From a virus, in IMG/VR virus record IMGVR_UViG_3300017949_002822, positions 1-30,883 of that record: 30,883 nt of DNA. The stretch is one strand, 5' to 3'. The position numbers and the translations under genes are program-made. The notes beneath the pieces are model-generated. The model saw nothing but the letters and a program-made list of their open reading frames with translations, did not search any database and was not told the DNA's origin. Positions 928-22,443 of this stretch are shown piece after piece; position 1 is the stretch's first letter; each line of letters starts with the position of its first letter.

Positions 928-2517
928 ATGGCAAAGAGTTTAGATGGCGTTCAGATTAAGAAGGCCCATAGCAAACAAAAATATACACTGGAAGAAGTTA
1001 AGCATCTAGAAGCATGCATGGATCCTGTTGACGGACCATTATACTTTGCCAAAAACTTTATCAAGATTCAACACCCTACCAAGGGTTCCATGAAATTTGT
1101 TCCCTATGGTTATCAGGAAGATCTTTTAAGAGCATATCACGATTATAGATATACCATTGCCATGCTACCAAGACAGATGGGCAAGACTACCTGTGCGGCA
1201 GCATACCTTCTTTGGTATTGCATGTTCACTCCAGAAGCACAGGTATTAATTGCAGCACACAAGTATACGGGTGCGCAGGACATCATGAACAGATATAGAT
1301 TCGGTTATGAGAACTTACCTGACTTCATTCGTGCTGGTATCTATACCTATAACAGAAATACTATCGAATTTGATAACGGAAGCAGAATACAGGCGACCAC
1401 AACAACAGAAGATACTGGACGAGGTAAGTCACTTTCGTTAATATACTGTGACGAGTTTGCATTCGTGCAACCACCAGAGAAAGCCAAGGAATTTTGGACT
1501 GCACTTTCACCCACACTGTCAACAGGTGGTAAGGCAATCGTAACATCAACTCCAAACTCGGATGAAGACCAGTTTGCCATGATCTGGACAGAAGCAAATA
1601 AAAAGTTTGACGAACACGGTAATGATCAAAAGGTAGGAACCAACGGATTCTATCCTTACTTTGCACACTGGGAAGAACATCCAGACCGAGATGAAGCATG
1701 GGCACAAGAGGAACGTGCTAAAATTGGAGAGGAGAGATTCCGCCGAGAATTTGATTGTGAGTTCTTGATCTTTGACGAAACATTAATTAACAGTGTTAAA
1801 CTTGCAGCACTTGAAGGAAATGAACCAATACACAATACAGGACAAACACGATGGTATAAGAAAATTAATCCTAAGGCAACATATCTTGTTTCATTAGATC
1901 CAAGTTTAGGTACGGGAGGTGACTATTCTGCAATACAAATATTTGAAATGCCATCGATGGAACAAGTCGGAGAATGGCGACACAATCTTACACCAGTTCA
2001 ACAGCAAATAAGAATTCTTAAGGACATATTAAAATACATACACGACGAAGCAGTTGAGGGAGGAAATCAAACTCCTACAATATACTATAGTTGCGAAAAT
2101 AATACAATTGGAGAAGCAGCGTTGGTTGTGATCAATGATATAGGGGAAGAAAACTTTAATGGATTATTCCTTAGCGAACCGATTAGAAAAGGACATGTTA
2201 GAAAATATAGAAAAGGATTTAACACTACACACAAAACAAAGATAACTGCATGTAGTGGACTTAAAAACGCAATTGAGCGCGACAAAATGAAGTTGCACAG
2301 TAAGCCTTTGATATCAGAATTAAAGACATTTGTAGCAACAGGACTTGGATACAGTGCCAAAACAGGCGAACACGATGATCTAGTATCAGCAACACTATTA
2401 ATAGTTCGAATGGCTAACCAATTAGCCAATTGGGATCCAAAAATATATGAAAAAATGACGGAAAGAATAACCGAGGACGAGTTTCCAATGCCAATATTCG
2501 TATCAGGAGGTTTTTGA
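928..2517 (+). CDS. terL: Terminase large subunit (gp17-like)
   Basis: This 529-aa protein is the ATP-driven DNA-packaging motor and headful nuclease, acting at the portal of the prohead. The N-terminal ATPase shows a Walker A segment RQMGKTT (residues 83-88), Walker B with catalytic Glu in IYCDEF (172-177) and a coupling motif TSTPN (206-210). The C-terminal RNase H-like nuclease shows the acidic residues D324 (VSLDPSLG), E390 (YYSCEN) and D483/D484 (EHDDLVSA). Length is slightly shorter than T4 gp17 (610 aa). The start at 928 lies 5 nt after a late promoter box with no ribosome-binding site, so its message may be leaderless. No gp16-like small subunit is visible next to it. The identification is firm. 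Confidence 0.97.
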   Translation: MAKSLDGVQIKKAHSKQKYTLEEVKHLEACMDPVDGPLYFAKNFIKIQHPTKGSMKFVPYGYQEDLLRAYHDYRYTIAMLPRQMGKTTCAAAYLLWYCMFTPEAQVLIAAHKYTGAQDIMNRYRFGYENLPDFIRAGIYTYNRNTIEFDNGSRIQATTTTEDTGRGKSLSLIYCDEFAFVQPPEKAKEFWTALSPTLSTGGKAIVTSTPNSDEDQFAMIWTEANKKFDEHGNDQKVGTNGFYPYFAHWEEHPDRDEAWAQEERAKIGEERFRREFDCEFLIFDETLINSVKLAALEGNEPIHNTGQTRWYKKINPKATYLVSLDPSLGTGGDYSAIQIFEMPSMEQVGEWRHNLTPVQQQIRILKDILKYIHDEAVEGGNQTPTIYYSCENNTIGEAALVVINDIGEENFNGLFLSEPIRKGHVRKYRKGFNTTHKTKITACSGLKNAIERDKMKLHSKPLISELKTFVATGLGYSAKTGEHDDLVSATLLIVRMANQLANWDPKIYEKMTERITEDEFPMPIFVSGGF

Positions 2518-4668: not shown

Positions 4669-4706
4669 CTAAAACAATCATGTAAATATGTGCATGGTTG
4701 TTTTAG
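4669..4706. repeat. 14-bp inverted repeat enclosing late promoter and start codon
   Basis: The arm CTAAAACAATCATG (4669-4682) pairs with CATGGTTGTTTTAG (4693-4706) at all 14 positions, with one G-T wobble and a 10-base loop. The loop holds the late box core, and the right arm begins with C plus the ATG at 4694. It lacks a downstream U tract, so it is not a normal terminator. In read-through RNA it would bury the start codon; in RNA started at the late promoter the left arm is missing. Confidence 0.8.
4681..4688 (+). promoter_or_regulatory. T4-type late promoter inside inverted repeat
   Basis: TGTAAATA lies at the apex of the inverted repeat and matches the late consensus at seven of eight positions. 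Six bases after its last A comes the ATG at 4694, the same spacing as at 928 and 10950. This supports 4694, rather than the ATG at 4688, as the start codon. Confidence 0.6.
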
Positions 4707-5305
4707 ATTTCAATACATCACTTGATCCAAATTGTGGTAAAGATTATAAAGTAGAAAACGATATAATCATTACTCCTTTTTGGACTCAAGAATTTTGTAA
4801 TAATTTAATATCAGTAGCAGAAGAATATAAAAATAACTTTTCAAAAGATATTGTTTGGTATGGTAAGTCTGGAAAAAATATCGGTTGGAATGATATAAAG
4901 TTTGACGACATAGATCCTAATATATCTGAATACTTTGTTAAGCAATATAAAAAATTTGCATTGCCTATAATTTCGGAAGTATTTACAGATGCTTCGTCAG
5001 ATATCAAGGGATGGTTCTCACCATATATTATTAGATATGATAAAGTTGACCAATGTGCCGATTTGCACAACGATGCCAGTTACCTTACATTTAATATTAA
5101 ATTGAATAACGACTACGACGGTTGCGATTTAATATTTCCAAGACAAAATTTTAATAGCAGAGATGTTCCAATAGGTCATGCAATGATATGGCCTAGCACA
5201 GTTAGTCATCCTCACTATTCCACTCCGTTAAAGTCCGGTATCAAATATTCCATTATATCGTGGACATGGCCTCCAGAATGGAATAAGACAGGAATACCTG
5301 CATAA
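4694..5305 (+). CDS. 2OG-Fe(II) oxygenase (prolyl-4-hydroxylase-like)
   Basis: This 203-aa cytoplasmic protein belongs to the 2-oxoglutarate/Fe(II) dioxygenase superfamily, which hydroxylates peptide or small-molecule substrates. The iron-binding HxD is H125-N-D127 (ADLHNDAS). The distal His is H172 or H174 (VSHPHYSTP), and the 2OG-binding basic residue is probably K184 (GIKYSIISW), where many relatives have Arg. The jelly-roll strands around these motifs are recognisable (YDGCDLIFPR, IGHAMIWPS). The ATG at 4694 is preferred to the one at 4688 because the latter overlaps the promoter box. It is a stand-alone late gene, followed by an independent host-type promoter. The substrate is unknown; two more oxygenases of this type occur in the window. 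Confidence 0.85.
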   Translation: MVVLDFNTSLDPNCGKDYKVENDIIITPFWTQEFCNNLISVAEEYKNNFSKDIVWYGKSGKNIGWNDIKFDDIDPNISEYFVKQYKKFALPIISEVFTDASSDIKGWFSPYIIRYDKVDQCADLHNDASYLTFNIKLNNDYDGCDLIFPRQNFNSRDVPIGHAMIWPSTVSHPHYSTPLKSGIKYSIISWTWPPEWNKTGIPA

Positions 5306-5322: not shown

Positions 5323-5350
5323 TTGACTTTTTATTTTATTAGCGTATAAT
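5323..5350 (+). promoter_or_regulatory. Sigma70-type promoter of the pqqA unit
   Basis: TTGACT (5323-5328), a 16-bp spacer and a perfect TATAAT (5345-5350) form a strong host-type promoter. Transcription should begin near 5357, giving a leader of roughly 120 nt before the pqqA-like ATG. No late box is present, so this unit is expected to be read early by host RNA polymerase. Confidence 0.85.
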
Positions 5351-5356
5351 AGATAT

Positions 5357-5475
5357 AAGTAAGAGTGTAAGAGATTCATTCTTACTTTGTAAAACTCAAG
5401 TTGGACCTTGCAGAACGAGCGCATCTCCAACGATCTGTCTTACATTATATTAACTTTATTTTAAGGAGAAATATT
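5357..5475 (+). promoter_or_regulatory. Structured 5' leader of the pqqA-like gene
   Basis: The leader has no start codon of its own. AAGTAAGA (5357-5364) can pair with TCTTACTT (5380-5387). GTAAGAG is repeated at 5359-5365 and 5367-5373, so the same TCTTAC can pair with either copy, which could give two alternative hairpins. A second hairpin is GTTGGA (5400-5405) with TCCAAC (5426-5431). The segment then becomes AT-rich and ends in AAGGAGA (5463-5469), an excellent ribosome site 6 nt before the ATG at 5476. The octamer CGATCTGT (5431-5438) recurs after the gene at 5599-5606. I do not recognise a known riboswitch class; a regulatory or stabilising RNA role is inference. Confidence 0.5.
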
Positions 5476-5547
5476 ATGTGGACAAAACCTTCATTTACAG
5501 AAATGAGATTTGGCTTCGAAGTTACGATGTATGTAATGAACAAGTAA
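5476..5547 (+). CDS. pqqA: PqqA-like coenzyme PQQ precursor peptide
   Basis: This gene encodes exactly 23 residues, beginning MWTKPSFTEM and ending FEVTMYVMNK. PqqA is the ribosomal peptide whose Glu and Tyr side chains are cross-linked by the radical-SAM enzyme PqqE (with PqqD) and then cut out to become pyrroloquinoline quinone. The invariant EVTxY core is present, with Glu15 and Tyr19 at the same positions as in the 23-aa Klebsiella PqqA. From memory about 12 of 23 residues match that peptide, including W2, K4, P5, F7, R11 and G13. The start has a strong AAGGAGA site with ideal spacing. The gene has its own sigma70 promoter and terminator, and no pqqB-E genes are in the window. The host would therefore have to supply the pathway. 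Supplying more of this consumed substrate, or acting as a decoy for PqqD/PqqE, are both possible. Confidence 0.9.
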   Translation: MWTKPSFTEMRFGFEVTMYVMNK

Positions 5548-5626: not shown

Positions 5627-5656
5627 TGCCCTGGCTTACAAAGTCAGGGCATTTTT
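5627..5656 (+). terminator. Rho-independent terminator of the pqqA unit
   Basis: TGCCCTGGC (5627-5635) pairs with GTCAGGGCA (5643-5651) with one G-U wobble and a TTACAAA loop, followed by TTTTT (5652-5656). It closes the transcription unit that starts at the 5323-5350 promoter. Confidence 0.9.
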
Positions 5657-5682: not shown

Positions 5683-5979
5683 ATGAAATATAGATTAGCA
5701 ATTCTTGCTACGGTAATAGGTGTGATGGCAATGTCTGGATTGGTGTATTCTGCCAAGAAAGAACATAGAAGTTATGAATTAGAAAAAGCAGTTCGCCTGC
5801 AAACTTTATCAAACATGGCATTAAATAATGAAAATTATGAACTTGCCTGCAAAGCACAACAGGAAGTAACTGATTCTCTCACTCGTGCCGGAGTAATAGA
5901 TGTAATAGAACAAGCAGATGTTGTTGAAAGCCAAATATGTTCATGGGCATGGACAACATCATTATCGGCTTCTAACTAA
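5683..5979 (+). CDS. Small membrane-anchored or secreted protein, unknown
   Basis: This 98-aa protein has a short basic N-terminus and a hydrophobic stretch at about residues 5-22 (LAILATVIGVMAMSGLVYSA). That could be a signal peptide with possible cleavage after YSA, or a signal anchor. The rest is helical and polar (YELEKAVRLQTLSNMALNN) with two Cys (residues about 56 and 86), which would fit a periplasmic protein with a disulfide. An AAAAGGA ribosome site precedes the ATG. It is the first of four tiny co-directional genes. An inner-membrane spanin-like role is conceivable, but there is no distinctive motif. Confidence 0.7.
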   Translation: MKYRLAILATVIGVMAMSGLVYSAKKEHRSYELEKAVRLQTLSNMALNNENYELACKAQQEVTDSLTRAGVIDVIEQADVVESQICSWAWTTSLSASN

Positions 5980-6194
5980 TGGCAAACTACTTTCAAACAG
6001 GGTTTACCGCATTGCAGGAGTTGGCAAAAATGAAAGAAATTAAAGTAATAGAGGTTCCCGATCCTTCCGAAGGACAGCAATCAATCAGCCAGGATGGCAG
6101 AGAGTGCGTGTTCCACAGGGGAAGATGGATAACCAAGGAAGAATATGATCGAGGAGTTTATATTAGATTGGCAGATCAAGGTGACTGCGTTTAG
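5979..6194 (+). CDS. Hypothetical 71-aa protein
   Basis: The ATG overlaps the preceding stop by one base (TAATG), so the gene is translationally coupled to its neighbour. The protein has an N-terminal amphipathic helix (FTALQELAKMKEIKVIEV) and a compact C-terminal half (RECVFHRGRWITKEEYDRG) with Cys residues at about 43 and 70. No signal peptide or membrane segment was seen and no family was recognised. Its place among small membrane genes is the only clue to its role. Confidence 0.6.
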   Translation: MANYFQTGFTALQELAKMKEIKVIEVPDPSEGQQSISQDGRECVFHRGRWITKEEYDRGVYIRLADQGDCV

Positions 6195-6203
6195 GAGATT
6201 AAG

Positions 6204-6437
6204 ATGGATAAGGCACCACAACCTAGTCCAGTAGGACTTGTAGTTGTCCTAGTTGTTTTTGCGTTTTTAATTTGGCACGGACCATTTGAAGAACGCTGGG
6301 GCAAAGAACCACAACCACATGATGCAATACAGCACGGTAGCATAGACTGCATGAAAGATTTGAAACATCTTACACCAACACAGATTGACATATGCATAGA
6401 AATACAATCATTTAGCAAAGGCTCCGATTATGAATAA
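6204..6437 (+). CDS. Small single-pass membrane protein, unknown
   Basis: This 77-aa protein has one clear transmembrane segment at about residues 10-25 (VGLVVVLVVFAFLIW), followed by a short polar domain with two Cys (IDCMKD and IDICIE). An AGGAGA site lies just upstream of the ATG. Its 3' end overlaps the start of the lipoprotein gene by 8 nt. Adjacent, overlapping genes for a membrane-anchored protein and a tiny lipoprotein are the arrangement of two-component spanins (Rz/Rz1). The soluble part is, however, short and not clearly coiled-coil, so that reading is tentative. Confidence 0.65.
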   Translation: MDKAPQPSPVGLVVVLVVFAFLIWHGPFEERWGKEPQPHDAIQHGSIDCMKDLKHLTPTQIDICIEIQSFSKGSDYE

Positions 6438-6624
6438 TTTACAAAGAGTTGGAATAATACTCTTAGTAGGATGCTTGGTGCTTTTTTTCCTATCAGGCTG
6501 TGCTGGGTATGATGTTGTTTACGAACGGGGAGAAGCATACGAACCCGTGGTACTAGCCGGAGTTTGCGGTGGTCCGGCAACAGACTGGCCCTGTTTGGAA
6601 GAAACACCCTGCTCTGTAATCTAA
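6430..6624 (+). CDS. Small lipoprotein (possible o-spanin-like)
   Basis: This 64-aa protein carries a typical type II signal peptide: basic start (MNNLQR), hydrophobic core (VGIILLVGCLVLFF) and lipobox LSGC with Cys24 as the lipidation site. The mature part would be about 40 residues, with several Pro and three further Cys. It is therefore predicted to reach the periplasm and the inner or outer membrane as a lipoprotein. The gene overlaps the upstream membrane-protein gene, a layout reminiscent of outer-membrane spanin subunits in phage lysis. A host-derived lipoprotein is the alternative. Being the last gene before the gp32 promoter, it closes this small cluster. Confidence 0.72.
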   Translation: MNNLQRVGIILLVGCLVLFFLSGCAGYDVVYERGEAYEPVVLAGVCGGPATDWPCLEETPCSVI

Positions 6625-10949: not shown

Positions 10950-11717
10950 ATGAAAATAGTGTTAGTTACCGGCGGATTTGATCCTATACATTCAGGACAT
11001 ATTTCTTATTTTAAAGCCGCCAAAAATCTTGGTAATCAATTAATAGTGGGCATTAATTCAGATGAGTGGCTACGACGCAAAAAAGGCAGAGAATTTATGC
11101 CTTGGCAAGAACGTGCTGCTATCATTGAAGCACTCGGGTGCGTTGATCGTGTAATTAATTTTAACGACGATGACGGAAGTGCTACTGATGCTATACGTAA
11201 AACAAGAGAGTTATTTCCAAAAGCAGAAATTATATTTGCCAACGGCGGAGATAGACAAGCAGACAACATTCCAGAACTGTTTGACGACAATACAGGCGAA
11301 TTAACATTTGTCTACGGTGTAGGCGGAGAAGATAAAAAGAATTCAAGCAGTTGGATCCTAGAAGAATGGAAATCTCCTAAAACTATACGCAATTGGGGTT
11401 GGTATAGAGTATTAGATAATCAACCCCATAACGGATTTAAAGTTAAAGAATTAGTAATTGAACCGGGTAAGAGTTTATCAGATCAACGACATTTTAAAAG
11501 AAATGAAATGTGGTACGTATTAAAAGGAACTGTTAACATGGTTACCGAATGGGAGGGAAGATCCGAAACTCAAACTTTAAAATCATTAAACAAGGGATAT
11601 GACATTAAAGTAGGAACTTGGCATAAAGCATCAAATCCTTCCGATAATGAATATTCGCACATTCTAGAAGTTCAGTACGGCGAAGAATGTATAGAAGAGG
11701 ATATCGAAAGAAGATGA
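10950..11717 (+). CDS. Cytidylyltransferase-cupin fusion
   Basis: This 255-aa protein joins two domains. Residues 1-135 form a nucleotidyltransferase with the HxGH motif in GGFDPIHSGH (8-17), as in glycerol-3-phosphate cytidylyltransferase (TagD) and RfaE C-domains, which make CDP- or ADP-activated alcohols and sugars. Residues about 148-255 form a cupin like the C-terminal part of type II mannose-6-phosphate isomerases: WYRVLDN, FKVKELVIEPGKSLS, RHFKRNEMWYVLKG, GTWHKASNP and a closing EVQYGE...EEDI. The metal site is degenerate compared with the usual HxH. It likely prepares an activated building block for the downstream transferases. The gene ends with an ATGA overlap into the next gene. 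Domain calls are confident; the exact substrate is not. Confidence 0.85.
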   Translation: MKIVLVTGGFDPIHSGHISYFKAAKNLGNQLIVGINSDEWLRRKKGREFMPWQERAAIIEALGCVDRVINFNDDDGSATDAIRKTRELFPKAEIIFANGGDRQADNIPELFDDNTGELTFVYGVGGEDKKNSSSWILEEWKSPKTIRNWGWYRVLDNQPHNGFKVKELVIEPGKSLSDQRHFKRNEMWYVLKGTVNMVTEWEGRSETQTLKSLNKGYDIKVGTWHKASNPSDNEYSHILEVQYGEECIEEDIERR

Positions 11718-12520
11718 GTAAATGGATTTTTTTAAGTAAAGGAAAAGACGATCCTTACATGAACATGTTTGCTCGAGGCTGTGGCTGTGAACCAGTTGAC
11801 CCTGATTTATTTGATTATGATTCATCTGAAGATCCTATAGCATTGCGAGGAATATTAAAGAAAAAATTCATGTTTAAATGCTGGTCCGATCAGAGAGATT
11901 TCTATTATATGGATACAGGATACTTTGGAAACGAAAGGACACAAAGCAATCCTAATGGCTGGAAGTATTGGCATAGAATAGTTAAAAATAATCTACAACA
12001 CGGTGACGAAATAATTAAAAGACCTGCTGACAGATTTGAAGCATTTAGAAAAAAGTTTAATCCTTGGAAGAAGGACGGAAGGAAAATATTAATCGCTGCA
12101 CCCGACGAAAAACCCATGAAGTTCTATGGAATCGAATACGATGATTGGATCAATGAAACAATTACAGAAATTAAAAAACATACCGACAGGCCAGTTGAAG
12201 TTAGAAAAAGAAATAAGTTAAGATTAGACAGATTAACCACAGACACATTACAAGATGCATTGGATGATGATGTATTTGCACTCGTAACTTTTAACAGTAA
12301 TGCAGCAGTAGAGTCTATATTTCATGGCGTTCCAGTATTTGCATTAGCACCTCAATCAGCAGCGGCACCAGTTTCTTTAAAAGATCTATCAAAAATTGAA
12401 ACTCCATACTATCCGGATAGAGATAAATTATTTGAGTGGGGTTGTCACCTAGCATATGGTCAATTCCATATAAGCGAGTTACAAACAGGTAAAGCCAAAA
12501 GGATGTTGGAGGAAAGATGA
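11714..12520 (+). CDS. GT-B-like protein, paralog A of five
   Basis: This 268-aa protein belongs to a family present five times in the window. Shared landmarks are an aromatic DTGY segment (FYYMDTGYFGN), WHRIVKNNLQH, P-x-DR-F-E, a KILIAAPDEKP strand, a TDRPVEVR strand, the loop FNSNAAVESIFHGVPV and the ending LAYGQFHISELQTGKAKR. The NSNAA-x-E-x5-GxP loop resembles the donor-sugar region of GT-B transferases and of capsule-export/Kdo-transferase-type proteins. The start at 11714 gives an ATGA overlap with the fusion gene; an ATG at 11687 overlaps more and was rejected. Glycosyl- or polyol-phosphate transfer is the likely activity but the acceptor is unknown. Confidence 0.78.
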   Translation: MSKWIFLSKGKDDPYMNMFARGCGCEPVDPDLFDYDSSEDPIALRGILKKKFMFKCWSDQRDFYYMDTGYFGNERTQSNPNGWKYWHRIVKNNLQHGDEIIKRPADRFEAFRKKFNPWKKDGRKILIAAPDEKPMKFYGIEYDDWINETITEIKKHTDRPVEVRKRNKLRLDRLTTDTLQDALDDDVFALVTFNSNAAVESIFHGVPVFALAPQSAAAPVSLKDLSKIETPYYPDRDKLFEWGCHLAYGQFHISELQTGKAKRMLEER

Positions 12521-13188
12521 AAGTATTTGTAGGATACGACACAAGAGAAGATATTGCATATCAAGTATGCAAACACAGTATTATAAGTAAACAGCCAAAC
12601 GCAGATGTGCGTCCGTTAAAGCAACAAGAACTAAGAGATGCAGGATGGTATACTCGTCCCATTGATAAACTAGGATCTACCGAATTTACATTTACACGTT
12701 TTTTAATTCCAGAACTTACAAACTTTGAGGGTTGGGCATTGTTTATGGATTGTGATATGATTCTCACAACAGACATAAAAGAATTGTTTGACCAGGCAGA
12801 TGACAAGTATGCCGTAATGTGTGTTCAACATGATTACAAAGTACAGGAAGGTTTTAAGATGGATGGACAAAAACAAACTGTGTATCCACGTAAGAATTGG
12901 TCAAGCGTAGTATTATGGAACTGTGCCCATCCAAGCAATAAAGTTGTAACTACAGATTTAATTAATAATTCCGAAACAACTGGAAAATATTTACATAGAT
13001 TTGCTTGGCTTAAAGACGAAGAGATTGGCGAATTAGATCATACATGGAATTATCTAGTAGGTGTATACAACGACATCGAAAAACCCAAACTAATACACTA
13101 TACCGAAGGCGGACCTTGGTTTGAAAATTATAGAAACGGTGAGTTTTCTCGTTTGTGGAAAGAAGAATTACAGGATATGATGAAGTAA
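12517..13188 (+). CDS. Glycosyltransferase, GT8-like (GT-A fold)
   Basis: This 223-aa enzyme shows a GT-A layout: N-terminal MKVFVGYDTRED, a metal-binding DxD at D78-C-D80 (ALFMDCDMIL), a substrate strand KNWSSVVLWNC, and a late HYTEGGPW segment with the His typical of GT8 retaining transferases. It would move a sugar from a UDP- or similar donor. The gene overlaps paralog A by an ATGA and is followed 2 nt later by paralog B, so it is co-translated with them. No signal peptide is present, so it acts in the cytoplasm. The fold is well supported; donor and acceptor are unknown. Confidence 0.88.
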   Translation: MKVFVGYDTREDIAYQVCKHSIISKQPNADVRPLKQQELRDAGWYTRPIDKLGSTEFTFTRFLIPELTNFEGWALFMDCDMILTTDIKELFDQADDKYAVMCVQHDYKVQEGFKMDGQKQTVYPRKNWSSVVLWNCAHPSNKVVTTDLINNSETTGKYLHRFAWLKDEEIGELDHTWNYLVGVYNDIEKPKLIHYTEGGPWFENYRNGEFSRLWKEELQDMMK

Positions 13189-13190
13189 TT

Positions 13191-13967
13191 ATGAAGGAAT
13201 ACTCTTTAGAAGAAGCACTGGTAATAGGATCAGGAAATAGACTTACTACTGATACTAATGATACTTCCAAACCCTTGGTTGTAAGAGGAGTTATTAAAAA
13301 AGACCATGTGAATAGATGCATCGAAACTGGAAGAGATTTCTATTACATTGATACTGGATATTTGGGAAACTTTCCAAGTAAAGGAAATCCAAGCGGTAAA
13401 AAAATATGGCACAGGGTGGTTAAGAACGAAAATCAACACTCAGTTATTAGAAACGTACCAAGCGATCGATGGGAAAAATTAATTAAACAGGATCCTAGAT
13501 TACAATGGAAGGGCTGGAAAAACTATAACAAAAAAATATTATTAGTAATGCCCAATCCTAAGGCTTGTAAGTATTATAATGTAAATTATGACGAATGGGT
13601 TAAAGAAACTGAAAATAAATTAAAAGAATTTAGTAATTTACCTGTGGAAGTTCGAATAAAAGGATCACGCAGTGATCGAAATAATACATATTCGATATAC
13701 GATGCACTAGATAGTGGGACTGCTATTACTGTGGCATTTAATAGTATAGCAGCATTAGAATCAGTAGCATACGGTGTTCCGGCAATAGTAAGTGTTCCTT
13801 GCTGTGCTACACCCATTGCAGAATCCGATATCTCAAATATTTCTAATCCGTTCAAACCTGATTCTAATTTAATAGAAAAACAATGTATGAATTTAGCATA
13901 CGGACAATTTACCATGGAAGAAATTTTAAATGGCATGGCATACGAACTCACAGAGAAATATTCATGA
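13191..13967 (+). CDS. GT-B-like protein, paralog B of five
   Basis: This 258-aa protein is the closest relative of paralog A: FYYIDTGYLGNF, IWHRVVKNENQH, NVPSDRWE, KILLVMPNPKACKYY, VEVR, VAFNSIAALESVAYGVPAI and LAYGQFTMEEILNGMAYELTE align in the same order. The ATG at 13191 comes just after the GT8 gene's stop. Earlier in-frame ATGs lie inside that gene and were rejected. It lacks signal or membrane sequences. It lies in a run with the GT8-like gene and paralogs C and D, pointing to consecutive transfer steps or to diversified acceptor specificity. The activity is inferred from the shared loop only. Confidence 0.78.
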   Translation: MKEYSLEEALVIGSGNRLTTDTNDTSKPLVVRGVIKKDHVNRCIETGRDFYYIDTGYLGNFPSKGNPSGKKIWHRVVKNENQHSVIRNVPSDRWEKLIKQDPRLQWKGWKNYNKKILLVMPNPKACKYYNVNYDEWVKETENKLKEFSNLPVEVRIKGSRSDRNNTYSIYDALDSGTAITVAFNSIAALESVAYGVPAIVSVPCCATPIAESDISNISNPFKPDSNLIEKQCMNLAYGQFTMEEILNGMAYELTEKYS

Positions 13968-15097
13968 AACTACTTTTAAACGATAAAGAAATTGCAAATT
14001 TTTTACATAGCCTTGTTGATACACATCGAGATGCAAAGAAGCAACCTGTACCTGAGGATAATCTAAACTATGTAAAGCAATTATTCATAGAAAAAGAAGT
14101 TGCAAGGAAATTAGATAATAAAAAAGTTTATGTAAAGCCAAAAGACTCTTGGGATGATAACACTAAACAAAAATTCTATAACAAATTAAAAAAAGCAATA
14201 ACCAAGGACATGGAGAACTATTATTCTTACATGAGAAATTGGTTAAAGGAAAAGAAGAATAGTGACTTTAATACAATACATAAAAACCTTGAAAAAATTA
14301 TTAATAAAATAGGGTTAGAAACTATATTTGAAAATTATAAAAAAAGCAAATATAAAAATTTTGTTAAGGGAACAGGTTTAAGTTTAGACTCTAACGGAAC
14401 GTTTATAAGAAGAAAAGATTTTATTTCCTATGATCAGGATTGTTTAATTAGAAATACTGTAGGTAACGAAGAACTTTTAGTTACTAAAATAGATAACAAT
14501 TATCCGTTCTGGTTTATAGATAGTGGTTATACAAACTTTCTTGAGCCTAACAAAAAATGGCACAGGCTGGTAAGAAACCATTTACATTACGGAGAGTATT
14601 TTGATGCGCCAGTATCTAGGTTAGAAAATTTTGTCAAGTTTCCAGTTCCGTGGAGAAAGAACGGTGATACTATATACATCATAGAACCAGGTCCGTTTGC
14701 TGCAAGTATTTTTCATTGCGATTTAAAAACTTGGAAGTATGATGTAGAAGCAGAATTAAGGAAGCATACAGATAAGCCTATCAAATTTAGAGAAAAAGCA
14801 CCTTTAGATCAAAGAACTAATTTATTTAAGGAACTACTTAATGAGGATTACTATTGTGTTATAAGCATTAATTCTAATGCAGCAACTGAAGCAATTTGGG
14901 CAGGTATTCCGGCAATTACATTAGGAAAACATATTACTAATCCCATCACAAAAAACAGTCTTTCTGATATCAATGATCTATATTATGGAAAAATTACCGA
15001 CTGGCTTTGTATGTTAAGTTACAGTCAATTCACAAAAGAAGAATTAATGAACGGAACAGCAAAACGTATTATAGAGAAATATCATGTCAAAATTTAA
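13964..15097 (+). CDS. GT-B-like protein with helical N-terminal extension, paralog C
   Basis: This 377-aa protein has two parts. Residues 1 to about 170 are Lys-rich and helical with no clear domain (YNKLKKAITKDMENYYSYMR, FNTIHKNLEKIINKIG). The rest matches the family: FWFIDSGYTNF, WHRLVRNHLHYGEYF, APVSRLENF, TIYIIEPGPFAAS, TDKPIKFREK, INSNAATEAIWAGIPAI, LSYSQFTKEELMNGTAKRIIEKY. It starts at 13964 with an ATGA overlap; an ATG at 13883 lies within paralog B and was rejected. The extension is unique within the five and may bind a partner or acceptor. The product is probably a cytoplasmic glycosyltransferase-like enzyme. Confidence 0.78.
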   Translation: MKLLLNDKEIANFLHSLVDTHRDAKKQPVPEDNLNYVKQLFIEKEVARKLDNKKVYVKPKDSWDDNTKQKFYNKLKKAITKDMENYYSYMRNWLKEKKNSDFNTIHKNLEKIINKIGLETIFENYKKSKYKNFVKGTGLSLDSNGTFIRRKDFISYDQDCLIRNTVGNEELLVTKIDNNYPFWFIDSGYTNFLEPNKKWHRLVRNHLHYGEYFDAPVSRLENFVKFPVPWRKNGDTIYIIEPGPFAASIFHCDLKTWKYDVEAELRKHTDKPIKFREKAPLDQRTNLFKELLNEDYYCVISINSNAATEAIWAGIPAITLGKHITNPITKNSLSDINDLYYGKITDWLCMLSYSQFTKEELMNGTAKRIIEKYHVKI

Positions 15098-16019
15098 AGC
15101 AGTTGCATACTATGGTGGAATTCCGCCGAATAATAATAATCCAGAAAAACCTTTAATTCTAGATAACTTTCTACAGGGCGTAAGAGCCTCCGGAGATGAA
15201 GGAATTGATCACAGAGGTATGAATGCTATTCCTTGTGATGTAGCATTTATACAAGGATTCGTGCATGAGGACGGAAAGAAAGGAGTTCCGCATTTAACTC
15301 TAAGACAAAACGCAATTGATATGCAAAAACAAAACGGAAAGCGTTCTTTGATAGTCGATAGTAACTTATTTTTATTTGCAGACCCGGGAAATACAAAAAC
15401 ATATTTAAGATATAGTTTTGATGGAGTTTTCCCTACGACTGGTTTTTACTTTGATACCGATATTGATCCGTTACGATGGAAAAAAATTAGTAATAATTTA
15501 GGCCTTTCTCTTAAACCATGGAGAACACAAGGAACTCACATATTAATATGCTGCCAAAGAAACGGTGGATGGAGTATGAAAGGATTATCCGTTAATCAAT
15601 GGTTACTAGAAACTGTTGCAAAAGTAAGATCTTTTTCTGACAGACCAATTGTTATTCGAGTCCATCCTGGAGATAAAAAATGGCAGAGATGGTTTGATCA
15701 AAGCATATTTAAAAAATACAAACACGTTACATTAAGTAAAAATCATATTAGGCAAGATCTTAATAATGCTTGGGCATCAATTGTTTATAACAGTTCTCCT
15801 AGTATTGCTAGTGTGATTGATGGAATTCCAACATTTGTTACAGATCCGCAAGTTGATATAAGTCAATCGTTCGGAGTGTGTAATACAAATCTTAAAAGAC
15901 TCGAGGATCCAAAAATGTTTGAAAGACAGGAATGGATAGAAAAATTATCAATGTGCCATTGGAATTTTGATGAGTTGCGTTCCGGTGAAGCATGGCAGTT
16001 TTTTAGAAAGTTTATTTAA
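15084..16019 (+). CDS. GT-B-like protein, paralog D of five
   Basis: This 311-aa protein is a more divergent member. It has a distinct N-terminus (AVAYYGGIPPNNNN, DNFLQGVRASGDEG, DVAFIQGFVHE), then RSLIVDSNLFLF, a THILICCQRNGGWS strand, DRPIVIRVHPGD and the loop VYNSSPSIASVIDGIPTFV, ending MCHWNFDELRSGEAW. The RVHP segment resembles the RxHP motif seen in capsule-related transferases. The ATG overlaps paralog C by 14 nt. The 3' end overlaps the convergent minus-strand glycosyltransferase by 8 nt. It resembles proteins I recall from cyanophages. The molecular activity is unproven. Confidence 0.78.
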   Translation: MSKFKAVAYYGGIPPNNNNPEKPLILDNFLQGVRASGDEGIDHRGMNAIPCDVAFIQGFVHEDGKKGVPHLTLRQNAIDMQKQNGKRSLIVDSNLFLFADPGNTKTYLRYSFDGVFPTTGFYFDTDIDPLRWKKISNNLGLSLKPWRTQGTHILICCQRNGGWSMKGLSVNQWLLETVAKVRSFSDRPIVIRVHPGDKKWQRWFDQSIFKKYKHVTLSKNHIRQDLNNAWASIVYNSSPSIASVIDGIPTFVTDPQVDISQSFGVCNTNLKRLEDPKMFERQEWIEKLSMCHWNFDELRSGEAWQFFRKFI

Positions 16020-16860
16020 ACTGTTGCCAATAAGGTTCTGGTCTAGGAACTTTTAAATCATCTCTTTTACTTTTACCTAACTGCTTTCTTCCACCTTTAA
16101 GGTGATCTAAGTATGCGCCCCATTCGCAATTTATAAGAGGATGACCTTCACCGCTAGACATACCAGGTCGTGGTCTTAAATCGTGTAAAGATGCTGCCCA
16201 GTCATACTGTTTAAGATTAGGAAATCTCTGCCTGACAACATCAAATACAAAACTGTCATGCCATTCAATCATTGAGAATATTCCGCCTTGGCCTTCCGCA
16301 TCATCGTATACCCTTTGAAATTCTGTTAGAAAGTCTTTGGTGCTTTGTGATTCCATGTTCATAGCATAAAGTCCACACTCTGAATATTTTCCTTTTCTTC
16401 CTAAGTAACAAAGTTCCTGTTTGCCAGGAAGTAATCCATTTAATTGCTTTGAATTTATAGGACTATGACAAAAAGTGTCTGCATCCATCCACATTAACCA
16501 CTTTGTATTACATTCTGTTGCACATGAAAAAATGCTATATACCTTGTGTGCAAATCTTATAGCATGCCATTTAAAACCCTTGCCTGAATCTTTTCTTTTA
16601 CTTCTTATAGGATCGGAACTAACATCTCCGTTGGCCTTAGGAACATTTTTCCATCTCTCTTTAAAAGCAACAAGCTCAGGACTTGCTTGATGAAGATCCT
16701 TTACGATTAAATTAGGTGCAGATTCTTGTACCACACAATCTTCGGCATATACATAAAGTTTTACCTCTGCAGGCCAATTTCTTAAAAAGGATTCAATCAT
16801 CCTTTTTCCGTATTGTTCATATCCTTGTTTATGAAAAGTTGTTACTACAGTTATACTCAC
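16012..16860 (-). CDS. Glycosyltransferase (GT-A fold), minus strand
   Basis: This 282-aa protein begins MSITVVTTFHKQGYEQYGKR, typical of nucleotide-diphospho-sugar transferases, and has the metal-binding D126-A-D128 in WLMWMDADTFCH. Later segments CGLYAMNMES and SFVFDVVRQRFP define the acceptor half. It lies on the opposite strand with its small upstream neighbour, overlapping it by 4 nt (ATGA-type coupling on the minus strand), and converges with paralog D. This two-gene minus-strand island interrupts an otherwise plus-strand region, which suggests separate acquisition. Cytoplasmic sugar transfer is likely; the substrate is unknown. Confidence 0.87.
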   Translation of the reverse strand: MSITVVTTFHKQGYEQYGKRMIESFLRNWPAEVKLYVYAEDCVVQESAPNLIVKDLHQASPELVAFKERWKNVPKANGDVSSDPIRSKRKDSGKGFKWHAIRFAHKVYSIFSCATECNTKWLMWMDADTFCHSPINSKQLNGLLPGKQELCYLGRKGKYSECGLYAMNMESQSTKDFLTEFQRVYDDAEGQGGIFSMIEWHDSFVFDVVRQRFPNLKQYDWAASLHDLRPRPGMSSGEGHPLINCEWGAYLDHLKGGRKQLGKSKRDDLKVPRPEPYWQQFK

Positions 16861-17255
16861 TTTAATCTACTCCATTGATGACACCAACCTAGTTGTGCTA
16901 TTGCTTTATATCCTATCTGATATAACAATTTACTTTCAGTTCTAGGAATTACTTCTTCGCCTTCTATAAAAATATCTGGCTCAACTTTAGTTAATAATGG
17001 CGATAGTTGATCCATTATATGTAATTTATCTAAATCTATAAAAATGGCTGTAACGTCTCTTAAATCAAAAGTGCTTTCGATAGTTTTTCTAGAAATTAAA
17101 TTTCTTGCTTTAGTTTCTATATCAGTTTCATAAACAAATACTGTATTGAACATTCCAAGCAAATTATCAAAGTTTCCGAACCCATTACCGACTACTAGGC
17201 AGTCAATTGGAACTTTTTTTACGTTTTTTGATATTCTTTTTTTAAATTTATCCAT
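16857..17255 (-). CDS. Small Rossmann-like protein, possible methyltransferase remnant
   Basis: This 132-aa protein has a glycine-rich strand-turn (IDCLVVGNGFGNFDNLLGMF) followed by an acidic strand end (VFVYETDIETKARNL) and a TAIFIDLDKLHIMDQL strand. The pattern recalls the SAM-binding half of class I methyltransferases (motifs I, II and IV). The protein is too short for a complete enzyme and lacks an obvious catalytic motif. It is the first gene of the minus-strand pair and is read from the shared intergenic region at 17256-17294. It may partner the glycosyltransferase it overlaps. The assignment is tentative. Confidence 0.65.
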   Translation of the reverse strand: MDKFKKRISKNVKKVPIDCLVVGNGFGNFDNLLGMFNTVFVYETDIETKARNLISRKTIESTFDLRDVTAIFIDLDKLHIMDQLSPLLTKVEPDIFIEGEEVIPRTESKLLYQIGYKAIAQLGWCHQWSRLK

Positions 17256-17263
17256 TGTAAACC

Positions 17264-17285
17264 ATTAAATACTACTATATTTATT
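17264..17285. promoter_or_regulatory. Divergent pair of late-type boxes
   Basis: On the plus strand ATTAAATA (17264-17271) precedes the gene at 17295, with a GGAGAG ribosome site. On the minus strand AATAAATA (17285 to 17278) precedes the gene ending its leader at 17255. The two boxes are 6 bp apart and face opposite ways, so late transcription could start both ways from a 39-bp gap. Confidence 0.5.
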
Positions 17286-17294
17286 GGAGAGAAC

Positions 17295-18152
17295 ATGCGG
17301 TTCAAACTTTTCAGAGAGCACGGTGCATTAAACAGTCCTGACATTTTCAATGCATTTGAGCAAGGACTCAAGCACACAGGCCACGAAGTTGTTAGCGATA
17401 ATGAAGATGTAGCAGTGATCTGGTCAGTGCTATGGAACGGACGTATGCTACCTAATAAGTTAATTTTTGAAAATGCTAGAAAGAATAACAAGCCTATTGT
17501 AATTATAGAAGTAGGAAATTTAAAGAGAAACATAACATGGAGAATATGTTTAAATCATATACACGGATTAGGAACATTCGGAAACGATAGTAACCTAGAT
17601 ATCGATCGTCCTGCAGACTTAGGAATATATCTTAAAGAAGAAAACAAATATAGATCAAAAAGTATACTAATTGCAACACAGCATTCTAAGAGTTTACAAT
17701 GGGAAGGCATGCCCTCTACGGATGCTTGGGTGTATTCTGTTGTTGAAAAGATAAGAGAAAAAACTGATCAGACGATAGTTTTACGTCCACATCCCAGATC
17801 GCCAATGCCTGGAATAGAACACGAATTCAAAAATGTAATAAGACAAAATCCAATAAAGGTGAATGGTACCTATGATGACTTTGATATACGATACGATTAT
17901 CATTGTGTAATTAATCATAACAGTGGAGTTCCAATCCATGCTGCTATTGCAGGAACTCCAGTAATATGCGATTCGAGCAGTTTGGCATATCCCGTATCTG
18001 ACACGTTCGAAAATATTTTAAATCCTGTATTGCCCGATAGGCAGGAATGGCTAGTAAAGGTAGCGCATACCGAGTGGACCGTGGAAGAAATTGCCAAGGG
18101 CATCCCCATTAAAAGATTAGAAAATCATATTTTAGCACAACTAAACTCTTGA
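17295..18152 (+). CDS. GT-B-like protein, paralog E of five
   Basis: This 285-aa protein starts MRFKLFREHGALNSPDIFNA after a clear GGAGA site. Landmarks are DVAVIWSVLWNGRM, IVIIEVGNLKRNITWRI, SILIATQHSKSLQW, TIVLRPHPRSP (RxHP-type) and the loop NHNSGVPIHAAIAGTPVICD, ending AHTEWTVEEIAKGIP. It is the most divergent of the five relatives, separated from the others by the minus-strand pair. From memory very similar proteins occur widely in cyanophages. A capsule- or glycan-type transferase role fits, but no substrate can be inferred. An early promoter overlaps its stop codon and drives the next gene. Confidence 0.8.
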   Translation: MRFKLFREHGALNSPDIFNAFEQGLKHTGHEVVSDNEDVAVIWSVLWNGRMLPNKLIFENARKNNKPIVIIEVGNLKRNITWRICLNHIHGLGTFGNDSNLDIDRPADLGIYLKEENKYRSKSILIATQHSKSLQWEGMPSTDAWVYSVVEKIREKTDQTIVLRPHPRSPMPGIEHEFKNVIRQNPIKVNGTYDDFDIRYDYHCVINHNSGVPIHAAIAGTPVICDSSSLAYPVSDTFENILNPVLPDRQEWLVKVAHTEWTVEEIAKGIPIKRLENHILAQLNS

Positions 18153-18177
18153 TTTTTGTTAACAGAGAACGTATAAT
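18149..18177 (+). promoter_or_regulatory. Sigma70-type promoter, leaderless spacing
   Basis: TTGATT (18149-18154), a 17-bp spacer and TATAAT (18172-18177) lie directly before the ATG at 18184. Start of transcription about 7 nt after the -10 box coincides with the A of the ATG. There is no convincing ribosome site, so this early mRNA would also be leaderless. Confidence 0.8.
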
Positions 18178-18183
18178 AAGACA

Positions 18184-19365
18184 ATGAAAGAGCCATTCTA
18201 CATTGAAGATATATTTTTGAAATTTTTCGAAACGATGTCGACGAATAGAATTTTTATGCAGCCTAATGATAGAAGTGCTGCTGTAAGTTTCTATACCAGT
18301 CTAAACTCTAACACATTGTTAACAGAGAATCAAGCAAAGTACATACTTAGAATACTAACGAAGTACAGAAACACCTGCCAGCCATATTATGATTTTATAA
18401 TTCATTTAGAAGAGCCTCAGTGGAAAAATTCTTTTAGAGTTATAGATCAATCAAAAAAAGTTTGGGTTGAAAAGGACGGTAAGGAATTATGGTTATGTTT
18501 TAAATTTCCATTTCAACTGAAAGAGTACTTTGATAAAGAAATTGCCTTGCAACAAGGCTGGGGTTCACACACAGGCATGTGGGACAGAGAAAGAAAAATT
18601 AGAAAGTTAAAATTTTACGAATACAATCTAATGTCTATATTTGAATTCTGTAAAGAAAAAGAGTTTGAGATCGAAGAATCATTCATGGAAGCATTATCGA
18701 ACGTCGAAGAAATTTGGCAGAATCAAAAAATTCACCAGAAAAGATCAACAGTTCGAGAGGATCAAGTAATACTAAGGAATGCTCCAGAAGATGCATTAGA
18801 TTATTTTGAAAAACACAGAGCAAACAAGATATCTGCAGATTTAATATTAGCAAAGAATATGGGATATCTATATGAAGAAATTCCAAACAATATTTTTGAA
18901 AAGATTGCAAATGCCAACAGCAATCGTTTTTTTGCTAAGGATATAAAACAATTTTTAGAACTAGCATACGGTGTTCAGGGTAAAATATTAATAATTTTAG
19001 AAAGAGGAGAGCGTGCAGAAGATTGGATTAAGCATCTTGCCTATGAAATAGAAAAACACAATTATGATAAGACCGATTTCAGAGTTTGCTTTAGATCAAG
19101 CAACAAAGAAAATCCAGATTTTAATAAATGGGTCAATCAAAACGGTTTTGGTGGAAAAATAAAGGACGCAAAGTTCCTAATCTTCCAACAAAAGCCAGCA
19201 AAGTGGTTGTTCAAAGACGTAAATGATGTTATAATAGTTGCTACAAATGAATTATTACCAGGTATGAATTCTACAGCAAGGGCGATGTTTAACAATCACC
19301 CGTGTGTTGTTTTTATTGGTGAATACAAACCTGTTAAAGATAAGGAAGATATAGTTGAACTGTAA
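18184..19365 (+). CDS. Conserved protein upstream of uvsW, HARP-like N-terminal region
   Basis: This 393-aa soluble protein has an N-terminal stretch (about residues 75-165: FRVIDQSKKVWVEKDGKELW, QLKEYFDKEI, GMWDRERKIRKLKFYEYNLM). It resembles, loosely, the HARP/substrate-recognition domains that precede annealing helicases. The C-terminal third has Rossmann-like strands (KILIILERGERAEDW, DVIIVATNELLPG, PCVVFIGEY), but no Walker A motif is present. It overlaps uvsW by 11 nt and shares its promoter, so a helper role in branch migration or replication restart is plausible. The domain likeness is judged by eye. The gene is certain; the function is not. Confidence 0.82.
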   Translation: MKEPFYIEDIFLKFFETMSTNRIFMQPNDRSAAVSFYTSLNSNTLLTENQAKYILRILTKYRNTCQPYYDFIIHLEEPQWKNSFRVIDQSKKVWVEKDGKELWLCFKFPFQLKEYFDKEIALQQGWGSHTGMWDRERKIRKLKFYEYNLMSIFEFCKEKEFEIEESFMEALSNVEEIWQNQKIHQKRSTVREDQVILRNAPEDALDYFEKHRANKISADLILAKNMGYLYEEIPNNIFEKIANANSNRFFAKDIKQFLELAYGVQGKILIILERGERAEDWIKHLAYEIEKHNYDKTDFRVCFRSSNKENPDFNKWVNQNGFGGKIKDAKFLIFQQKPAKWLFKDVNDVIIVATNELLPGMNSTARAMFNNHPCVVFIGEYKPVKDKEDIVEL

Positions 19366-20806
19366 ACTTATTATAAAAGACGAAGTAAACATTAAGTTCG
19401 AAGGACTTGCTGTCGAGACTAGAAGGAAGATCGCTAATAAATTAAAATACGATCTTCCTTATGCACGACACATGCCGGCTTTTAAACTAGGCCGTTGGGA
19501 CGGAACTGTGAGTTTCTTTGGTATTGGAGGAAATGGTTTCTTAGCACACCTTGATGTTGCACTTCCTATAGTTGAAAATGATGGATATGATATCGAAGTA
19601 ATAGATCAACGAGAGCATCACAAATTTGACTTTAATAAAATCGACGAAAACTATTGGGCCGACAAAGGAAAAGTTTGGCCGAAAGGTCACCAACAAGCAG
19701 GACAACCTATAGTGCTGCGTGATTATCAATATGACGTTGTTAATCAATTTTTAGAAAATCCACAATCGTTACAGGAGGTTGCAACTGGTGCTGGTAAGAC
19801 TATTACGACTGCTACCCTTTCGCATTTATGTGAGCCTTATGGCCGCACAATGGTCATTGTACCAAACAAGAGTCTTGTTGTACAAACTGAAGAAGATTAC
19901 AAAAATTTAGGACTTGATGTAGGAGTTTACTTTGGTGATAGAAAGGAACTAGATCATACCCATACAATTTGTACATGGCAAAGTCTTAACGTTCTTGATA
20001 AGAAAAGTTATGATGGCGATAGTTTAACGCTTGCAGAATTTACGGAAGGTGTGAGAGCAATTATAATTGATGAAGTACACCAAGCAAAGGCTGATGTTCT
20101 TAAAAAACTACTCACAGTAAACTTTAGAAATGCACCCATACGTTGGGGATTAACAGGAACCGTTCCTAAGGAAAAGTGGGAATTTCAAGGCATACTAGCC
20201 AGTATCGGTCCTGTAATTAATAATGTATCAGCACACGACTTACAGGAAAAAGGCGTGTTGGCAAAATTAGATATACAAATTTTACAAACAAAAGATATTG
20301 AAGAATTTAGAAGTTACCAAGAAGAATATACTTGGCTTGTTACCGATTCAAAGAGATTAAAGTATATTAGCAATCATATTTCTAGTGTTGCAAAAAACGG
20401 TAATACACTTGTACTAGTTAATAGAATCGATACAGGTAATAAACTATTAAAAAATATTCCAGAAGCAACGTTTATCAAAGGCGATGTAAAACTAGACGAT
20501 AGAAAAGAACAATATGACGAAATTAAAACATCTGACGGAAAGATTATTATTGCTACTTATGGGGTTGCCGCTGTTGGCATTAATATTCCTCGTATTTTTA
20601 ATTTGGTTCTTATTGAACCCGGAAAAAGTTTTGTCCGTGTTATTCAAAGCATTGGGCGCGGAATAAGAAAAGCAGAAGACAAAGATTTTGTACAAATTTG
20701 GGATATTACTTCTACCTGCAAGTATGCAAAAAGGCATCTAACAGAACGAAAACGATTTTATAAAGAAGCAAAGTATCCACATACGGTAACAAAGGTAGAT
20801 ATATGA
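19355..20806 (+). CDS. uvsW: UvsW DNA/RNA helicase
   Basis: This 483-aa SF2 helicase unwinds R-loops and branched DNA in T4-type replication and recombination. After the N-terminal domain (GRWDGTVSFFG) come Walker A GAGKT (145-149), DEVH (239-242), the TGT motif III (267-269), GDVKLDDRKEQ and motif VI QSIGRGIRK (431-439). Size is close to T4 UvsW (about 500 aa). The start must be TTG at 19355, because an in-frame stop lies just before it. An AAGGA at 19342-19346 gives good spacing. Translation is coupled to the upstream gene and to the FkbM gene (ATGA). Confidence 0.95.
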   Translation: MNCKLIIKDEVNIKFEGLAVETRRKIANKLKYDLPYARHMPAFKLGRWDGTVSFFGIGGNGFLAHLDVALPIVENDGYDIEVIDQREHHKFDFNKIDENYWADKGKVWPKGHQQAGQPIVLRDYQYDVVNQFLENPQSLQEVATGAGKTITTATLSHLCEPYGRTMVIVPNKSLVVQTEEDYKNLGLDVGVYFGDRKELDHTHTICTWQSLNVLDKKSYDGDSLTLAEFTEGVRAIIIDEVHQAKADVLKKLLTVNFRNAPIRWGLTGTVPKEKWEFQGILASIGPVINNVSAHDLQEKGVLAKLDIQILQTKDIEEFRSYQEEYTWLVTDSKRLKYISNHISSVAKNGNTLVLVNRIDTGNKLLKNIPEATFIKGDVKLDDRKEQYDEIKTSDGKIIIATYGVAAVGINIPRIFNLVLIEPGKSFVRVIQSIGRGIRKAEDKDFVQIWDITSTCKYAKRHLTERKRFYKEAKYPHTVTKVDI

Positions 20807-21375
20807 GTGAAGTTAAAATAGACGATTGGGCAATGCCTAAAATAAAAAATTTTCGTACTTACATTGATATAGGTGCAAGTAACGGAAAAACATCGTTTCC
20901 TTACGTTAACAAGTTTAAAAGAATTATTTGTTTTGAACCCAATCCTAAGAGCTTTGTAGAACTTTCTAGTAATGAACGTCTGGAATGTCATAACATTGCA
21001 TTGGGTGATATTGAGGAAATTAAAACACTGATTGTAAACAGCGAAACACAAAATCCAGAACACGGATCTATTTCTGAAATAAGAAATAAAGACTGGACCG
21101 ACGGAGAAAAGTTTGAAGTTCAAGTAAAAAGATTAGATGACTATAAGTTTTTTGATGATGTTGATTTTATAAAAATTGACACAGAACAATACGAGCTTAA
21201 CGTAATTAAAGGTGCTGTAAAAACTTTAAAAAAGAACAGACCAACAATTATGTTTGAAAATAAAAGAAACGAAGCAGATGAAGCAATTATATTTTTGTTA
21301 GACTTAGGGTTTACTGTTAAAAAATATAAGAGTGATACAATTGCTTTTTATGAGGACAATAATGAAAGTAATTAA
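20803..21375 (+). CDS. FkbM-type methyltransferase
   Basis: This 190-aa protein has the FkbM landmarks: SAM-binding YIDIGASNGKT (20-30), FEPNPKSF (44-51), the HNIALGD strand, and the catalytic-region DFIKIDTEQYELNVIKGA (121-138) with the family's IDxEGxE-type motif here as IDTEQYE. FkbM enzymes O-methylate sugars or polyketides, and in phages they often lie with glycan genes. The start overlaps uvsW by an ATGA. Length fits a minimal single-domain member. Sugar methylation is inferred from the neighbours. Confidence 0.88.
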   Translation: MSEVKIDDWAMPKIKNFRTYIDIGASNGKTSFPYVNKFKRIICFEPNPKSFVELSSNERLECHNIALGDIEEIKTLIVNSETQNPEHGSISEIRNKDWTDGEKFEVQVKRLDDYKFFDDVDFIKIDTEQYELNVIKGAVKTLKKNRPTIMFENKRNEADEAIIFLLDLGFTVKKYKSDTIAFYEDNNESN

Positions 21376-21901
21376 TGACGAAAAGTTAGATCTGATAGTA
21401 AAGTATACATCAGAAACTAGCGGAACAAGAGAACATTTTCTAAGTGACATCGTTAAAAATAATAATCTTAAACTAGGTGCAGAAATTGGAGTTCGAACAG
21501 GAAAAACAACATTTCATATTCTAGACAATAATCCTATGTGCGAAATGTATGCCATAGACAAAGATATTACACAATTTTTTAATGATACGGTTAAGGAGAA
21601 ATACGGACATAGGTTAAAAACATACGAAACCGATAGTAGAGTATCTCCGGACTTTGTTGCTGATAATAGTTTAGATTTTTTCTTTATAGATGCTTCGCAT
21701 ACTTACAAAAATGTAAGAAAAGATTTAATTGCCTGGATGCCTAAACTAAAACATGATGGTTGGATGATGGGACACGACATAGATTATCCTTCCGTTGAAA
21801 AAGCGGTTATGGATGTTATTGGATTTTATGAAGTAGGACCCGATAATGTTTGGATAGCCAGACATGAAAAAACATATCCAGGATTACAGGAGAACCAATG
21901 A
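21362..21901 (+). CDS. Class I SAM-dependent methyltransferase (Methyltransf_24-like)
   Basis: This 179-aa protein carries motif I LGAEIGVRTGKT (38-49), an acidic strand end (MYAIDKD) and motif IV FFFIDASHTY (106-115), typical of the Methyltransf_24 group found in glycan clusters. The ATG at 21362 overlaps the FkbM gene by 14 nt and has GAGG just upstream. An ATG at 21332 lies deeper inside that gene and was rejected. The next gene starts with an ATGA overlap. It probably methylates a sugar or glycan precursor in the cytoplasm; the target is unknown. Confidence 0.85.
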   Translation: MKVINDEKLDLIVKYTSETSGTREHFLSDIVKNNNLKLGAEIGVRTGKTTFHILDNNPMCEMYAIDKDITQFFNDTVKEKYGHRLKTYETDSRVSPDFVADNSLDFFFIDASHTYKNVRKDLIAWMPKLKHDGWMMGHDIDYPSVEKAVMDVIGFYEVGPDNVWIARHEKTYPGLQENQ

Positions 21902-22404: not shown

Positions 22405-22412
22405 TAATTACA

Positions 22413-22418
22413 TATAAT
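22413..22418 (+). promoter_or_regulatory. Possible early/middle promoter -10 element
   Basis: A perfect TATAAT occurs in the 39-bp gap before the cupin gene, but no good -35 is found at 16-18 bp. It might be an activator-dependent (middle-type) promoter or chance. The cupin gene has AAGGAAG and AAAGG sites further downstream. Confidence 0.4.
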
Positions 22419-22443
22419 AACGCCACAGTGCAAGGAAGAAAGG

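Follow-up and report, generated by a model that had tools for sequence, protein, structure and literature searches.

The DNA analysed here, a single IMG/VR record of 30,883 bases (the window), carries a phage gene for PqqA, the precursor peptide of the cofactor PQQ, and directly before it a structured leader RNA. Judged by sequence comparison, this leader RNA and pqqA form a host-type cassette that is common to phages and to OM43-type methylotrophs. Viral PqqA itself has already been published; what is new is the leader RNA that phages and hosts have in common.

The phage pqqA gene and its lineage

The gene lies on the + strand (5476..5547), with its ATG at 5476 and a TAA stop at 5545-5547, and encodes the 23-aa PQQ precursor peptide MWTKPSFTEMRFGFEVTMYVMNK. 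The first-pass annotation had claimed a PqqA identity from the letters alone and had named a PqqA HMM match as the check; the identity is confirmed, as the peptide exceeds both curated models by more than twice their cut-offs, scoring 47.3 bits against PF08042 (Pfam PqqA; gathering score 21.1, E 1.8e-12) and 47.8 bits over the full length of the TIGR02107 equivalog (cut-off 20, E 8.5e-13). Residues W2, K4, P5, F7, R11, G13, E15, and Y19 are all present, and E15 and Y19 satisfy the ExxxY spacing, in which a Glu and a Tyr stand four positions apart; these two residues of PqqA are the pair joined by PqqE. A degenerate PqqA pattern matched once in the window and not at all in 100 dinucleotide shuffles, 30 related viral records have an orthologue at the corresponding position, and a sequence search of solved structures with the 23-aa peptide returned no match. 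On this evidence from profiles and orthology, the window gene is a real phage PqqA, a member of a set that is widespread and for the most part unannotated.

The pqqA of the window, in which all residues required of a substrate are intact, is a small unit of its own, made up of the leader RNA, a Shine-Dalgarno sequence, 23 codons, and a terminator-like hairpin, all on the + strand. The Shine-Dalgarno sequence (AAGGAG, 5463..5468) lies 7 nt 5' of the ATG and is conserved among the aligned leaders. The hairpin (5627..5656), read from the sequence, consists of TGCCCTG..CAGGGCA with an 11-nt loop, followed by TTTTT, and similar hairpins with altered stems are found 3' of pqqA in the relatives L261, L273, and L306. 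A sigma-70-like promoter, TTGACT-16-TATAAT (11/12 matches; 5323..5350, + strand), has its position before the leader as sole support, such sites being no more numerous in the region than in shuffles. Another hairpin (5355-5387) lies directly 5' of the leader and has upstream counterparts in L273, L306, L307, and L320; in several relatives it is terminator-like with a U-run (GTGTAGTA..TACTACAC-TTTT), and where the leader is absent the same terminator-like hairpin stands directly before pqqA.

By its genes, the window covers part of the genome of a jumbo PA5oct-like myovirus: its terminase large subunit, the lineage marker (TerL; 928..2517, + strand; PHROG terminase), shares 55% identity with those of PA5oct-type phages, and the order of TerL, SSB, and UvsX is the same as theirs. 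Upstream of pqqA is a 2OG-Fe(II) oxygenase-like gene (4688..5305, + strand), whose match to PF13640 (E 0.0042) is under the curated cut-off, and downstream are four small genes (5683-6624) that look membrane- or lipoprotein-like from their sequences and have no match in PHROGs or Pfam; some of them stay beside pqqA in leader-bearing relatives. Between the UvsX region and later genes is a long sugar/surface gene block (10950-27470) with a cytidylyltransferase and cupin, epimerases, methyltransferases, and several similar ORFs of ~280-400 aa resembling glycosyl/capsule-transfer proteins. The window contains no pqqBCDE; no PQQ-dependent dehydrogenase was seen among its ORFs, nor was such a domain found in four related jumbo records.

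Among TerL relatives gathered regardless of pqqA, 31 records including the window have pqqA between terL and ssb, and 26 related records in which this interval is assembled have none there; 23 of these 26, searched along the whole record, have no pqqA elsewhere. The gene is thus not essential to the lineage. Its presence on the TerL tree requires 7 changes compared with 17.6 when labels are shuffled, which indicates that pqqA has been gained and lost, but inherited. One could take such patchiness as the mark of a passenger, picked up by chance from hosts and drifting. This explanation is very improbable in view of a pN/pS of 0.20 over 20 distinct alleles with saturated synonymous sites, the same place kept in distant relatives, and the occurrence of pqqA in several unrelated phage lineages. 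The conservation in related phages and the selection ratio, on which the first-pass annotation had also staked its reading, come out in favour of it. In sum, a host-type gene is found in a bona fide virus with a sequence signature of purifying selection, making it a candidate auxiliary metabolic gene.

The same alleles bear on what the peptide may do. E9, R11, G13, E15, V16, T17, and Y19 are invariant in all 20 lineage alleles, and positions 6, 7, 8, and 21 vary freely. In a scan of IMG/VR for copies with E15 or Y19 replaced in the same frame, which covered replacement codons starting with a base other than G at E15 or other than T at Y19, there were 0 such copies versus 102 intact ones. The first-pass annotation had suggested as a competing idea that the phage peptide is a decoy tying up PqqD/PqqE; such a decoy or inhibitor would lower PQQ or stop competing phages, and a PqqA-like peptide would indeed bind PqqD and PqqE. 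Nothing, however, should keep a decoy from losing Glu15 or Tyr19, and neither the lineage alleles nor the IMG/VR scan reveals such a loss; moreover, a viral peptide can match a host one residue for residue (e.g., MWTTPAATEMRFGFEVTMYVMNK), and the host-type leader is retained. We therefore regard a decoy as unlikely, and the pN/pS of 0.20 together with the lack of E15/Y19 replacements favours a role for viral PqqA as a real PQQ precursor.

pqqA in other phages and in OM43-type hosts

A tblastn search with the peptide against 50,697 GenBank phage records matched 12 records, of which ten were true phages: the methylophages Venkman, P19250A, MEP301, MEP401, MEP402, and Melnitz (4 strains), and a spring-water podovirus. 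Six cultured methylophage types, which come from several lineages, carry pqqA. No gene is annotated at the pqqA site in Venkman, P19250A, MEP301, MEP401, or MEP402, and in Melnitz and the spring-water podovirus the annotated ORF at that site is on the opposite strand; standard annotation therefore misses pqqA in all six cultured types, leaving it unannotated in 5 of the 6 and placing the Melnitz ORF on the other strand. The metabolic genes listed for MEP401/402 do not include PqqA (PMC10580990).

Beyond cultured phages, a PqqA-pattern search of IMG/VR found at least 120 contigs, which fall by gene content into Venkman/podovirus-like, MEP402-like, T4-like, jumbo, and unplaced groups. Viral PqqA is far commoner than so far described. 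When flanking DNA was examined, pqqB, C, D, or E was found beside 0 of 120 viral loci versus 35 of 119 bacterial loci.

The remaining two GenBank matches, both labelled 'Acinetobacter phage MD-2021a' (CAKLQF020000010.1 and CAKLQH020000055.1; L009 and L010), were rejected because each record holds a complete pqqABCDE operon of bacterial origin; both look like pieces of a chromosome under a wrong label, and one of the two also has a polyphosphate kinase. Bacterial operons of this kind raise the question of whether viral pqqA contigs in general are mis-sorted bacterial DNA, an explanation to which we give almost no weight: it is refuted by the complete isolate phage genomes that carry pqqA, the window has TerL, SSB, and UvsX in phage order, and the leader-bearing viral loci outside the jumbo lineage have T4-type DNA polymerase, helicase, clamp loader, or portal genes.

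Two viral contigs bearing both pqqA and the leader RNA have further genes of note. IMGVR_UViG_3300025120_009955 (72 kb; L361, L171) also encodes a PQQ-dependent methanol dehydrogenase (L361:1084-2958; 624 aa; TIGR03075, E 1.6e-182) with a WDYDG motif, which we take to be of XoxF type, adjoined by a weakly CsgB-like (curli) gene. In the other, an Rfam ROSE_3 heat-sensing RNA (L214:1445-1510; 54.3 bits, gathering score 43) lies directly 5' of an Hsp20 gene.

The link to methylotrophs drawn in the first-pass annotation is upheld from two sides: the GenBank phage matches are all methylophages except the one spring-water phage, and outside phages the leader RNA was found only in OM43-type genomes. 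From this we infer that the host of the window contig is a methylotroph. Within the Methylophilaceae, pqqA is present in 185 of 187 genomes, at 0 to 12 copies per genome, and in the flanking DNA examined many of these copies are not near pqqBCDE. PqqE was above cut-off in 17 of 19 small OM43-type genomes tested. In the complete OM43-type genome CP103437 (L369, L370, L371), the 15 kb read around pqqBCDE contain no pqqA; all three pqqA genes are orphans elsewhere, two of them in tandem behind the leader RNA; in the likely host, then, PqqA supply is uncoupled from its enzymes. pqqA usually adjoins pqqBCDE, which is a common feature and not a strict requirement, and because the pqqA genes of CP103437 are orphans too, the lack of pqqBCDE beside viral pqqA is not decisive against PqqA. 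Both observations fit the earlier proposal that a virus needs only this peptide.

A leader RNA shared by phages and hosts

Comparison of upstream regions revealed a conserved element 30-50 nt 5' of the start codon, and alignment and folding of the leaders yielded the helices P1 and P2 together with internal loops that are conserved. In the window the structured leader occupies 5386..5447 (+ strand); the first-pass annotation, working from letters alone, had missed it. P1 is formed by GUAAAAC (5389..5395; alignments A2/A3) and GUCUUAC (5437..5443), with one mismatch in the window copy (swap test 1/2000, all phages). Within it follow an internal loop, CUCAA/GAUCU, then P2, formed by GUUGGA (5400..5405) and UCCAAC (5426..5431), and a loop with conserved ACCUU..AUCU. 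P2 is a covarying helix (swap test 0/5000; 97.0-98.5% of cells paired), with two-sided changes from GUUGG/CCAAC in the window to GCGGG/CCCGU, AUCGG/CCGAU, CUAGG/CCUAG, and GCGAA/UUCGU in relatives. In an alignment of 22 leaders, which was fitted to the model and with which an 11-sequence alignment made without the model agrees, 92.1% of cells are paired, and covariation is 0.534, compared with 0.219 when shuffled and at most 0.107 when slid. The window leader scores 51.9 and 53.5 bits (E 4.5e-11 and 7.1e-12) against covariance models R1 and R2, respectively, the window being in the training set. Some minimum-energy folds contain a further pairing, P0, between the leader CUC and the Shine-Dalgarno GAG; it failed the swap/covariation test and was rejected.

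The leader is closely tied to pqqA well beyond the window. R1, trained on the jumbo lineage only, located it immediately 5' of pqqA in phages of other groups as well as in two bacterial genomes. Against 187 Methylophilaceae genomes, R2 gave exactly one match per genome in 23 OM43-type genomes of small size (0.7-1.4 Mb), at E 1e-7 to 1e-10; two of these genomes had served to train the model, which leaves 21 as independent. Each of the 23 matches is closely followed by a tandem pair of stand-alone pqqA genes. Extending the search to 399 genomes of the order returned the same strong matches only, plus three weak ones. A leader pattern blind to pqqA matched 35 viral contigs, and 34 of them have a PqqA ORF starting within 60 nt; the remaining contig ends before the pqqA position, so the association holds in 34 of 34 testable cases. 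These viral matches, together with those found once per genome before pqqA in OM43-type bacteria, are what identify the cassette as shared by phages and hosts. The leader is absent from about half of the pqqA-bearing relatives and from most other viral pqqA loci, and the Melnitz pqqA locus has no leader match.

In hosts and non-jumbo phages a third hairpin, P4 (7-11 pairs), ends directly before the Shine-Dalgarno sequence, with a swap test of 0/5000 in hosts and other phages, and of 4/5000 when only two host representatives are kept. There the 5' strand of P4 is the 3' strand of P1, so that P1 and P4 would be mutually exclusive. The lineage of the window lacks P4 and has kept P1 and P2, which suggests a changed or constitutive setting.

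The leader probably controls pqqA. It would act on PqqA translation, with P1 and P4 as alternatives, and possibly as a riboswitch: the leader is a conserved, covarying structure before a metabolic gene, a criterion for riboswitches, and with its pair of conserved internal loops and its two covarying helices it would resemble a binding domain. One could envision that the leader represents a novel class of riboswitch, with which marine methylotrophs adjust how much PqqA is made in response to PQQ, to an intermediate of its synthesis, or to some other signal of C1 metabolism. Phages would then have acquired the sensor along with its gene, and the jumbo lineage would have lost the switching hairpin, so that its gene escapes part of the control; we put this forward tentatively and would sooner doubt it than rely on it. 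Alternatively, the leader could be no ligand sensor but an element that binds a protein or stabilises the mRNA, and so singles out pqqA for high translation as it would in the host. No ligand is known, no switching hairpin is visible in the lineage of the window, where P4 is absent, and many phage pqqA genes manage without a leader, all of which would fit such an element; unpaired bases conserved at fixed places in distant copies and the conflict between P1 and P4 in hosts and other phages are, on the other hand, typical of switches. We consider a non-sensing leader a serious contender, if somewhat short of an even chance; it concerns the leader alone and leaves PqqA free to be a real precursor.

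Proposed precursor supply and comparison with known systems

Taken together, we think it likely that the phage supplies precursor under a regulatory leader. Upon infection, extra PqqA would be made by the phage, host PqqD/PqqE would cross-link its Glu15 and Tyr19, host PqqB/PqqC would complete PQQ, and XoxF methanol dehydrogenase would thereby be kept supplied with PQQ. Higher PQQ and sustained methanol oxidation during infection would be the expected outcome. Since xoxF usually tops the transcripts of OM43 in abundance (PMC5120137), demand for PQQ should be high. One PqqA is consumed per PQQ, which makes 69 bases the cheapest lever on the pathway: a gene of this size can provide the one substrate that the cofactor pathway uses up, which allows a virus to shift PQQ, and lanthanide-dependent methanol oxidation along with it, at near-zero genome cost. 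The leader RNA in turn offers a direct handle on how PQQ supply is set in streamlined ocean methylotrophs, and on the reuse of the same control by unrelated phages.

The first-pass annotation knew of no established description of PqqA as a viral metabolic gene; published descriptions exist. PqqA with methanol dehydrogenase has been proposed as an auxiliary metabolic gene in the Lake Baikal T4-like phages VP_139/VP_266 (Coutinho 2020, PMC7678222), and viral pqqA has been listed among P-cycling genes (PMC13188868). As is proposed here for the window, the Baikal pqqA belongs to phages of Methylophilaceae and was proposed to raise methanol oxidation (PMC7678222). The window phage differs in belonging to a jumbo PA5oct-like lineage and in that no PQQ-dependent dehydrogenase was found among its ORFs or in the four related jumbo records; the leader RNA was not reported in the Baikal phages (PMC7678222).

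For the leader RNA we found no published description, and the leaders of the window, L034, L194, and L214 matched no Rfam family at gathering score, nor gave a convincing weak match. Two known RNAs are comparable. A c-di-GMP riboswitch precedes pqqA in methylotroph strain GP59 (PMC12530212) and is likewise a structured leader before a methylotroph pqqA; the phage leader is a different RNA, matching no Rfam family, c-di-GMP included. In methylophage Melnitz, a glutamine riboswitch controls ssrA (PMC9004378), which parallels the riboswitch-type control that the window leader may exert in a phage of OM43-type hosts; the RNA and the gene are different ones. Phage PqqA in turn resembles bacterial PqqA (PF08042, TIGR02107) in its length, its E-V-T-x-Y core, and its full-length HMM match, and the motif MRFGFEVTMY is identical in phage and Methylophilaceae PqqA; unlike its bacterial counterpart with adjoining pqqBCDE, the phage gene stands alone, behind a leader RNA of its own.
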